Origin: Ectothiorhodosinus mongolicus
GTDB taxonomy: Bacteria; Pseudomonadota; Gammaproteobacteria; Ectothiorhodospirales; Ectothiorhodospiraceae
Reading direction: 5' to 3'
Length of the DNA: 64,000 nucleotides
NCBI RefSeq assembly: GCF_022406875.1
Contig: NZ_CP023018.1
Location: 1,623,914-1,687,913, forward strand
Of the stretch, positions 20,529 through 22,906 are shown piece after piece (the stretch's first letter is position 1; every line of letters starts with the position of its first letter). The notes below the pieces were generated by a model. It did not search any database, was not told the DNA's origin, and saw only the letters and a list, made by a program, of their open reading frames with translations. The translations under genes were made by a program, and so were the position numbers.

Positions 20529-20966
20529 CTAGGAGCGAGCTCGTGTGTTCAAAACTGCTTCCTCAAATGCTTTTCGTCTTTCCATTATCGACGCGGAGTA
20601 GCGGCCATTTCGAGGTGTTAGGGCAAGATAATGGGCTAAAATCAAATCAGCCCTCAACCTCTTGTATGTTCTCAGAAAGGGTGAGACATGCTGCAGGAGA
20701 TGAAACGCTTGCCGATTATAAATCGCATAAGTGTATCCAGGGGAATGTGCGGCACTATATGTGCGTTTGGTTGTGATTTTACCAGCAGCCAACGTCTCAA
20801 GAATATATTCCAGTAACGGACGCTCCGTGCTGCTGATCGAAACTGACAATTGGCGGTTTTCACCGCGGTGTTTCCGAACCAGCGTGATGGTGCCTTCACC
20901 GTCAATCACTCCCGCGATATAAGCGGCGTCTATTTTACTGAGCGTCATATTCATGATGGCAATCAT
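20529..20966 (-). CDS. Single-motif LAGLIDADG homing endonuclease
   Basis: A 145-residue protein with one LAGLIDADG motif (YIAGVIDGEGTITL; motif residues 17-25, acidic residue Glu24), then the expected strand region (QLSVSISSTERPLLEYI), a YAIYNRQAFHLLQHV segment and a basic C-terminal half. Single-motif members act as homodimers that cut near-palindromic sites of about 20 bp. The first ATG abuts the T-run of the tmRNA terminator, 40 nt beyond the tmRNA 3' end; no ribosome binding site is visible there, and the ATGs at codons 5 or 7 are alternatives. It is NOT inside the intron of the adjacent tmRNA gene. It is less G+C rich than its neighbours, suggesting transfer. Confidence 0.85.
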   Translation of the reverse strand: MIAIMNMTLSKIDAAYIAGVIDGEGTITLVRKHRGENRQLSVSISSTERPLLEYILETLAAGKITTKRTYSAAHSPGYTYAIYNRQAFHLLQHVSPFLRTYKRLRADLILAHYLALTPRNGRYSASIMERRKAFEEAVLNTRARS

Positions 20967-20997
20967 AAAAAAACCCTGGCCTTGTGAGCCAGGGTTT
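20967..20997 (-). terminator. Intrinsic terminator of the tmRNA gene
   Basis: A perfect 10-bp stem (AAACCCTGGC/GCCAGGGTTT, loop of 7) followed on the minus strand by seven T. It lies 9 nt past the tmRNA CCA end and directly before the first ATG of the endonuclease frame. Confidence 0.93.
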
Positions 20998-21005
20998 CCG
21001 ACGAA

Positions 21006-21635
21006 TGGTGGAGGCGGCGGGACAGCTGGTTCCCCATCTTTCGATGAGGGCTGGACTATACCTTCATCCTGTCGCCAGGATGCGGGGCGTGTTATCCGCA
21101 GCGATGATTGGCTGCGAATCCTAGTGCCGGCTCTGTGTTTTCACACTCAGCCGGTCTATGAGTCTCTACAGGGCAGGCCTGAGGTTAGCCCTCTTCCTAC
21201 CCCTCGGTGTTGCCGTGGCGGGTTACCCCCGCTTTAGGGTCCACCGATGTGAGCCCCGTTTTCACTTTACCCTTACGGGCAAAGGCGACCATTGTGTTAA
21301 TCGAACCCGCGTCCGAGAATCCTACGCCATCGGTACTACATGCTTAGTTCGTCTTTTCAGTTAACGCCTTGGTCTCCGACGAACAGGATACCGCAGCGCG
21401 AGCCCGATCAGTTTTAGCGGTTAAGACCCGGGCAGGTCCGCTCCGCGAGCTTGTATTAATGACCTCTGAGTGAAACCTACAAGCAAATCCCGTCAGAGGC
21501 TAACCGTTTCTTAGGCGGCTAGAGCGTAGTTGTCGTCGTTGGCAACTATAACGTAACAGCATTTTTTGCGAGGTAAGCTGTATCCTCGGCATGCACCTCA
21601 GGTTTCGCAACCCCCGTCGAAGCCAGGTCGCCCCC
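21006..21635 (-). ncRNA. ssrA: tmRNA (ssrA), interrupted by a group I intron
   Basis: Transfer-messenger RNA, which rescues stalled ribosomes and tags the nascent protein. The 5' end is GGGGGCGACCTGGCTTCGAC and the gene ends with encoded CCA. The tag frame at 21543-21511 reads ANDDNYALAA followed by TAA, a typical proteobacterial tag. The 5' GGGGGCG pairs with CGCCTCC before ACCA. The T-arm is split: GCGGGTTCGAT (exon 1) and TCCCGC (exon 2) are separated by 277 nt; joined they give a normal GCGGG-TTCGATT-CCCGC T-arm. Mature length without the intron is about 353 nt, normal for this group. Promoter and terminator are both visible. Confidence 0.95.
21023..21299 (-). mobile_element. Group I intron in the tmRNA T-loop
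   Basis: A 277-nt insertion. The upstream exon ends in U (GGTTCGAT) and the insertion ends in G (CCAGCTG), the group I splice-site rule. An internal guide GUCG, 11 nt into the intron, can pair with the last exon bases CGAU, placing a U-G wobble at the 5' splice site. The conserved S element AAGGTATAGTCC (21064-21053) and an R-like GTAGAGACTC (21169-21160) can form P7 (GACU/AGUC). There is no internal open frame on the intron strand. Splicing is inferred from these motifs and from the exact restoration of the T-arm. Confidence 0.9.
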
Positions 21636-21726: not shown

Positions 21727-22158
21727 GTGAAAATTGGGATCATGAAGACTCTAGGTGCTGCACTTGCCTCTCGGCGCGAACGCCAGACAAAGCACTGTAA
21801 TCAGTGTGGCAACCTATTTTTGGGTTTGAAGATATCGCGCTACTGCTCTGAGGCCTGTCGGCAGCGTGCTAAATACCACCGCTCCAAACAGGTGATGCGT
21901 CAAACACCTTTGTCGCGCACGCTAGGATTGAGCCGTGCCTATGACTGGAGCAACAAGCAAATTCCCGAGGAGGTTTTTCTGTTGCGCGTGCTGCAAGGCG
22001 TTGAACTGATCGATATCGCCAAATGTGTCCGAGTATACGGTGCAGATTGCATGCAGATAATTCTTGATCGCATAGATGACCCACTGACCCGCAACATCGC
22101 TGGCCGCAAGTTGCGTAATGCCATCGAAGCAATAGAGCATATTGATGCTGCGGCTTGA
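21727..22158 (+). CDS. Zinc-ribbon protein paired with AbiEii-type gene (putative antitoxin)
   Basis: A 143-residue protein from GTG 21727 (or ATG 21742). Residues 20-50 hold four Cys in a CNQCG ... YCSEACRQRAK arrangement, a zinc-ribbon-like knuckle followed by a basic stretch; the rest is mainly helical with no known motif. It overlaps the next gene by about 14 nt, the usual geometry of toxin-antitoxin pairs, and the partner is an AbiEii-like nucleotidyltransferase. An antitoxin role is therefore inferred from position, not homology: AbiEi antitoxins are winged-helix proteins and this is not obviously one. Divergent from ssrA with a 91-nt gap. Confidence 0.6.
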   Translation: MKIGIMKTLGAALASRRERQTKHCNQCGNLFLGLKISRYCSEACRQRAKYHRSKQVMRQTPLSRTLGLSRAYDWSNKQIPEEVFLLRVLQGVELIDIAKCVRVYGADCMQIILDRIDDPLTRNIAGRKLRNAIEAIEHIDAAA

Positions 22159-22906
22159 TGCTCTGCCCGAAGACACTCGGCGTGTATTTGGGTACTGTCG
22201 CACCCATAGTGCTCTAGAGTCATTAGGTTTAGCTCTTTTCGGTGGAACGGCCCTGTCGCTCTTGCTTGGGCATCGCCAGAGTGAAGACTTAGACTTTTTC
22301 AGCTTTGAATCCAGTCTACCGATTGATGGAATCAGTGCATTTCTCACATCCTGCCGCAAAGACAATATGGAGGTGCACAATATCCTCGATACTGTGCGAA
22401 TTTCTCAGGCGCGCATTAATGGCATTCGATTAGAAGATTACATTCAGGAATATCAGATCGATGGAGTGCGGGTCAGTTTTGCGGCCATGACTCGAGGCGG
22501 CGACTCGCGCCGCACGTATTTTGCGAATGCGCCCATGCTTTCGGGAACTCAGTCGGTATTCCAAATCCCTACGTTACAGACTTTATTTGAATCCAAGGCG
22601 CTGACACTCCGAGACCGTGTCACATCCAGAGATTTGTTCGATCTCATGGTTCTGATACGGGATCATGGCTGCACCATCGAACAGCTTTTGGACGCAATTG
22701 TTCGCATTGATCATATTGAATTGAGTCAGGCATCAGCAGTTCTGGAAATTCTGCTAGGTCATGTCCCGGTCGATGCCGATGACCCTGGATTTTATTCCAT
22801 TAGACTCAACACAAGCCTTGATGGCATTTATGCTTTTTTTAAAACGCAGATAGATGCCTACGAACAAGCTGTCGTGATTAGGGAGCTAGGTTCCAAGAGC
22901 GAATAA
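22145..22906 (+). CDS. AbiEii/AbiGii-type nucleotidyltransferase (toxin component)
   Basis: About 253 residues. The motif FGGTALSLLLGHRQSEDLDFFSFE is the hG[GS]-x9-DxD nucleotidyltransferase signature of the AbiEii/AbiGii family, whose known members are toxins of abortive-infection or toxin-antitoxin pairs that modify tRNA 3' ends. Further conserved pieces are LFESKALTLRDRVTSRDLFDLMVLI. Start ATG 22145 lies inside the upstream gene; a TTG at 22142 is the alternative. The sequence is less G+C rich than purL next door, suggesting transfer. Sitting beside a tmRNA gene, a frequent landing site for accessory DNA, fits that view. Confidence 0.82.
   Translation: MLRLDALPEDTRRVFGYCRTHSALESLGLALFGGTALSLLLGHRQSEDLDFFSFESSLPIDGISAFLTSCRKDNMEVHNILDTVRISQARINGIRLEDYIQEYQIDGVRVSFAAMTRGGDSRRTYFANAPMLSGTQSVFQIPTLQTLFESKALTLRDRVTSRDLFDLMVLIRDHGCTIEQLLDAIVRIDHIELSQASAVLEILLGHVPVDADDPGFYSIRLNTSLDGIYAFFKTQIDAYEQAVVIRELGSKSE

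Follow-up and report, generated by a model that had tools for sequence, protein, structure and literature searches.

A free-standing LAGLIDADG endonuclease gene beside the intron-bearing tmRNA gene of Ectothiorhodosinus mongolicus, a probable partner in collaborative homing

Organization of the ssrA locus

The stretch of DNA analysed in this study (the window: 64,000 nucleotides (nt) of Ectothiorhodosinus mongolicus, contig NZ_CP023018.1, positions 1,623,914 to 1,687,913) carries on its minus strand an ssrA gene, encoding transfer-messenger RNA (tmRNA), which is split by a group I intron and is followed on the same strand by a free-standing gene for a predicted homing endonuclease of the LAGLIDADG type. 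The whole ssrA gene occupies positions 21635-21006 (RF00023, 165.6 bits, expectation value (E) 1.4e-65). Its 5' exon (21300..21635), recognized from RF00023 and from its sequence, encodes the tag ANDDNYALAA and ends in GCGGGTTCGAT. The 3' exon (21006..21022), identified by its sequence TCCCGCCGCCTCCACCA, which is common to nearly all relatives, comprises the remaining part of the T-arm, the acceptor and the CCA end. The intron (277 nt; 21023..21299) is inserted between bases 6 and 7 of the T-loop, and the order within the T-arm is therefore GCGGGTTCGAT, intron, TCCCGCCGCCTCCACCA; the joined exons give a normal T-arm (GCGGGTTCGATTCCCGC), and the ssrA T-arm without the intron is GGACGCGGGTTCGATTCCCGCCGCC.

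The intron matched RF00028 with 35.9 bits (E 3.5e-7), a value under the Rfam gathering score of 50, and its identification also draws on covariation: in an alignment of 20 sequences (the window intron and 19 relatives) compensatory double changes were found in 30 of the 54 consensus pairs. The introns of the relatives are 250-345 nt long. The U at position -1 pairs, within P1, with a G of the internal guide GGTCG, the terminal base is G and the core is conserved. Together with the insertion point, these are the features of group I introns at position 7 of the tmRNA T-loop, the site at which tmRNA introns commonly reside (PMC11915505). No endonuclease open reading frame is present inside the 277-nt intron, which agrees with the preliminary description of this stretch, made from the sequence alone. 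The intron-split tmRNA was missed by the program ARAGORN.

The endonuclease gene (20529..20966) encodes a protein of 145 amino acids (aa). Its ATG at 20966 comes right after the T-run of the intrinsic terminator of ssrA (a hairpin at 20969..20999, minus strand), 39 nt past the CCA end at 21006, and the placement of the gene at the T-run, as first described, was thus corroborated. Alternative starts are present at 20954 and 20948, and the ATG at 20954 matches the starts of the relatives better than that at 20966. The protein contains a single LAGLIDADG motif (AGVIDGEG), whose DGEG part is invariant across 22 family sequences, and it matched PF14528 with 28.4 bits (cut-off 22.5). The AlphaFold2 model of the 145-aa protein has a mean predicted local distance difference test (pLDDT) score of 92, and its best matches among solved structures (Foldseek) were I-MsoI, I-CreI and I-CvuI (E from 1e-8 for I-MsoI to 3e-7; 17-26% identity). 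Judging from the catalytic acidic residue motif and the modelled fold, and in line with the position of its homologues downstream of ssrA, the protein is assigned to the single-motif LAGLIDADG endonucleases.

Where dS could be measured, the pairwise ratio of non-synonymous to synonymous substitution rates (dN/dS) of the endonuclease was about 0.10-0.18, and the window gene and its counterpart in genome G015 were 62, 79 and 33% identical at the three codon positions, a pattern indicating that the gene is under purifying selection. Ahead of the ATG at 20966 there is terminator sequence and otherwise no ribosome site. In the relatives, a leader of tens of nt separates the terminator from the start; of 18 relatives, 11 have a Shine-Dalgarno-like site (2.1 expected) and 9 show a -10-like hexamer past the terminator (2.2 expected). 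The earlier remark that the gene has no visible ribosome site, and that its expression may depend on read-through of the terminator, consequently holds for the window copy and is peculiar to it. Having lost the leader, this copy may be weakly expressed; its reading frame is still intact.

Distribution of the endonuclease and its association with the intron

When 84,980 species were scanned with a five-row alignment, relying on similarity to the endonuclease alone, 22 loci were revealed, in 21 of which a tmRNA gene was located just upstream on the same strand; at the remaining one (L080) a transposon-like insertion within the terminator splits the endonuclease from its ssrA. No match was obtained in the genome contigs with the window protein as a single sequence, nor in a search of plasmids, and only the window itself matched in a sample of 399 genomes of Pseudomonadota. 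With the searches of the class and of the Halieaceae added, the total rose to about 42 loci in Gammaproteobacteria. Wherever the contig extends far enough, the endonuclease starts 8-300 nt past the CCA end of the tmRNA, on the same strand and never within the intron. Intact relatives are present in Methylophaga sulfidovorans and Seongchinamella unica. Recurrence in about 42 genomes places the arrangement far beyond chance, so that what had been described as unusual for a tmRNA is real and is not unique to the window.

Within the window's own family (47 genomes) the gene or its remnant was detected in all seven intron-bearing genomes, two of them Thioalkalivibrio sulfidiphilus and T. denitrificans, and in none of the 40 others; two of the seven copies are decayed (G019 and G021). 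In those endonuclease-free genomes of the family that were examined ssrA is uninterrupted, and the target GGACGCGGGTTCGATTCCCGCCGCCTCCACCA is identical in uninterrupted relatives, i.e. intronless alleles with an intact target exist. Close to a tRNA cluster, genome G019 also contains a second, different tmRNA gene (L047, 4993-5362; tag ANDDSFDRALAA), which is probably carried on a prophage or plasmid.

The analysis was extended to 369 evenly drawn gammaproteobacterial genomes, in which each locus was read: 15 contained both elements, three the intron without a scored endonuclease, two the endonuclease without the intron, and 349 neither (Fisher p ~6e-22, a value that ignores phylogeny). The co-occurrence anticipated in the preliminary description was thus found in the family and, strongly, across the class. 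The 15 double carriers belong to more than 12 families, in most of which the sampled sisters lack both elements, so that the pattern does not stem from one inherited block. Among the three intron-only genomes, remnants of the endonuclease were recognized in G205 and G348, and nothing in G128. Six of 22 intron-pattern matches were discarded as chance ones, on the basis of their sequence and the lack of a tmRNA end.

Two further observations concern these intron-bearing loci. The introns of G128 (L111) and G348 (L128), neither accompanied by an intact endonuclease, share a similar G+C-rich inverted repeat (CCCTCTCCCGCTTGCGGGAGAGGG), which represents the insertion of a repeat element into a peripheral loop of the intron. 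In G205 the 5' junction of the intron-bearing ssrA was found on two contigs (C8:73910 and C12:33), and this genome possibly holds two ssrA copies.

Where an endonuclease gene adjoins an uninterrupted ssrA, its state varied with the sequence of the T-loop. Both copies next to the standard loop TTCGATT were broken (a frameshift in the catalytic motif in G050, an internal stop and truncation in G126), versus four intact copies out of four (G412, G413, G414 and G447) next to the loops TTCGAGA or TTCGAAA, whose changes fall exactly on the intron insertion point. This is the split that self-cleavage would predict, the numbers being small. Genome G444 has the loop TTCGAGA and no endonuclease. Wide occurrence of the endonuclease without the intron had been named beforehand as an outcome that would speak against the pairing; such occurrence was limited to a few bacteria, in which the T-loop is altered or the copy decayed, and to phage relatives adjoining tmRNA genes, and in this form it still points to tmRNA. 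In the Halieaceae, every sampled ssrA gene that lacks both intron and endonuclease (25 of 25) has a TTCAA-type loop, and all those bearing either element have TTCGA, possibly a footprint of co-conversion of the exon together with the intron. In G447 (L141) a second ssrA 3' end (GGCTCGAGACCGGCCGCCTCCACCA) is located between ssrA and the endonuclease, and an integrating element may have exchanged the T-loop in this genome.

Relatives with 37-43% identity to the endonuclease were identified on viral contigs. A tmRNA gene adjoins 14 of the 19 best viral relatives (two near-identical pairs counted), compared with none of 20 weaker LAGLIDADG matches from the same scan. Several of the phage-side tmRNA genes are permuted (two-piece), and in two cases (L187, 2857-3658; L193, 2833-3468) the endonuclease lies within the intervening segment of a permuted gene, once in sense and once in antisense orientation. 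In Sphingobium phage Lacusarx, LAV_00110 overlaps the annotated ssrA. All readable phage T-arms are uninterrupted. Some still more distant relatives in the INPHARED database are located away from tmRNA (Caulobacter phage CcrRogue, Gordonia phage Ailee) or within a tRNA cluster (Gordonia phage WilliamBoone). Since the phage copies adjoin tmRNA genes, the wider family is tied to tmRNA genes, the partnership with an intron being its bacterial form.

A proposed collaborative homing pair and its alternatives

The observations are best explained by a collaborative (trans) homing pair that resides at the tmRNA gene of bacteria, a reading to which we assign a probability of roughly 0.75. The endonuclease gene is free-standing beside an intron-bearing gene, the intron lacks an endonuclease frame, and intact intronless targets exist, as is characteristic of collaborative homing, and the comparative tests mostly favoured this interpretation, already put forward in the preliminary description. 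What the analysis shows is the arrangement and its recurrence, the co-occurrence of the two elements, the fold and catalytic motif, purifying selection, decay, and the identity of the target in relatives. Taken together, the sequence data suggest that the endonuclease may cut unsplit tmRNA genes and thereby help both itself and the intron to spread.

Cleavage and its position, the shielding effect of the intron, conversion and joint transfer are inferred as follows. The LAGLIDADG protein is expected to dimerize and would then cut the T-arm/T-loop of an uninterrupted ssrA, the resident copy being shielded by the T-loop intron or, in some lineages, by a change of the T-loop sequence. If a cut recipient were repaired from the donor allele, the intron would be copied into it and, given a conversion tract several hundred base pairs long, so would the flanking endonuclease gene past the terminator. 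The intron may also be exchanged for another or persist longer than the enzyme, which would then decay. Many endonuclease copies are indeed decayed where the intron persists, and purifying selection combined with such decay is the familiar invasion-and-decay cycle.

Several results weigh against this reading. In the class sample, about half of the endonuclease copies have decayed, and the intron occurs with no trace of the gene in G128, G551 (on its locus) and G550 (at the search threshold). The TTCGA loop of the Halieaceae could reflect a need of splicing (pairing of CGAU with the guide GUCG) instead of co-conversion. Distances between introns and between endonucleases are weakly correlated (Mantel r 0.11; r 0.44 for endonuclease versus ssrA exon distances), and the window and Thioalkalivibrio introns are ~89% identical, as against ~60% for the endonuclease proteins, so that the two have not moved jointly in recent times. 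Finally, as the phage relatives adjoin uninterrupted tmRNA genes, the wider family does not require an intron.

The last point is also what would be expected from plain intronless homing, in which the enzyme, having cut the tmRNA gene, copies only itself into the flank, and the intron, a separate element with the same loop preference, merely shields the site. Intact copies beside intronless ssrA genes with altered loops fit this scheme, and so does the accompaniment of two intron lineages (~52% identical) by a single endonuclease family that is not sorted by intron type: the lineage labels are unclustered on the endonuclease tree (about 110 of 500 shuffles were equally low). Lineage-A endonucleases as one clade were not rejected by the approximately unbiased (AU) test (p 0.07). 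We nevertheless consider intronless homing unlikely, in view of the co-occurrence of intron and enzyme in bacteria far above chance; at the majority of bacterial sites where the enzyme is intact the intron is present too, so that it benefits in practice.

It is highly improbable that the endonuclease is a mere passenger of genomic islands using the ssrA 3' end as an attachment site. Integrase-like genes do follow ssrA in G001 and G006, and in G050 the ssrA 3' end and the decayed endonuclease are duplicated 8.4 kb apart (L049, 5426-6105 and 13821-14499; first 300 nt identical), which may represent island attachment repeats or a segmental duplication; the second ssrA 3' end of G447 could be viewed in the same way. 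However, the endonuclease is the first gene past the terminator, on the same strand, it varies with the intron, no integrase separates it from ssrA, and the two viral copies mentioned above lie within permuted tmRNA genes. The least probable function is that of a maturase aiding the folding and splicing of the tmRNA intron: some LAGLIDADG proteins are maturases and the gene does co-occur with the intron, but introns persist where it is decayed or absent (G019, G021, G128, G205, G348), it is intact beside intronless ssrA genes, the readable phage tmRNA genes have no intron, and two unlike introns share the endonuclease.

Beyond the collaborative homing pair, we tentatively consider, at somewhat less than even odds, a dedicated LAGLIDADG family distributed through phages and bacteria, with members next to tmRNA genes of the standard type and, in permuted ones, next to or within the intervening segment, that would home by cutting the tmRNA gene. 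T-loop introns and loop variants would then spread, or be retained, as resistance alleles, and the pressure of the endonuclease would shape the tmRNA sequence.

Relation to known systems

I-CreI, I-MsoI and I-CvuI, which share fold and catalytic motif with the window protein, differ from it in being intron-encoded, in algal organelle genes. The name collaborative homing was coined for the cyanophage pair of F-CphI and psbA (PMC6083498). F-CphI is encoded beside the intron-bearing psbA of cyanophage S-PM2 (PMC6083498, PMC3984707), and there too the intron is expected to block self-cleavage; however, it is an Endo VII/DHHRN enzyme associated with one phage protein gene, with demonstrated cleavage, whereas the window system, known from sequence, involves a LAGLIDADG protein and a bacterial chromosomal RNA gene and recurs in many families. 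In trans homing of the T4 nrdB intron (PMC2988022), a process similar to collaborative homing, the free-standing MobE, likewise with a terminator at the 5' end of its gene, mobilizes the intron of a neighbouring gene; it differs in being an HNH nickase, in acting on phage protein genes and in the presence of a defunct intron-encoded enzyme.

The tmRNA introns compiled in PMC11915505 are of the same class and T-loop position as that of the window, but their homing genes, found in 36 of 883, lie inside the intron, and adjacent free-standing genes are unmentioned. Only ~4% of the known introns thus carry such a gene. In the full-text literature searched, most subscription journals lying outside it, no free-standing endonuclease was found to be described as a partner of tmRNA. 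Collaborative homing and tmRNA introns are thus known, and the free-standing partner beside the tmRNA gene appears to be new within the literature covered. If the proposed pairing is correct, a conserved adjoining endonuclease would explain how, in Gammaproteobacteria, the remaining tmRNA introns spread, and collaborative homing, so far described for phage genes, would extend to bacterial chromosomes, where it recurs as a naturally replicated set. Apparent resistance alleles would then occur in a near-universal bacterial RNA, and all of this could be examined with small synthetic substrates.

Upstream of ssrA and divergent from it, the window contains (21727-22906, plus strand) a 143-aa open reading frame and a gene for an AbiEii-like nucleotidyltransferase (PF08843, E 9e-15); the two may form a type IV toxin-antitoxin or AbiE-like pair.
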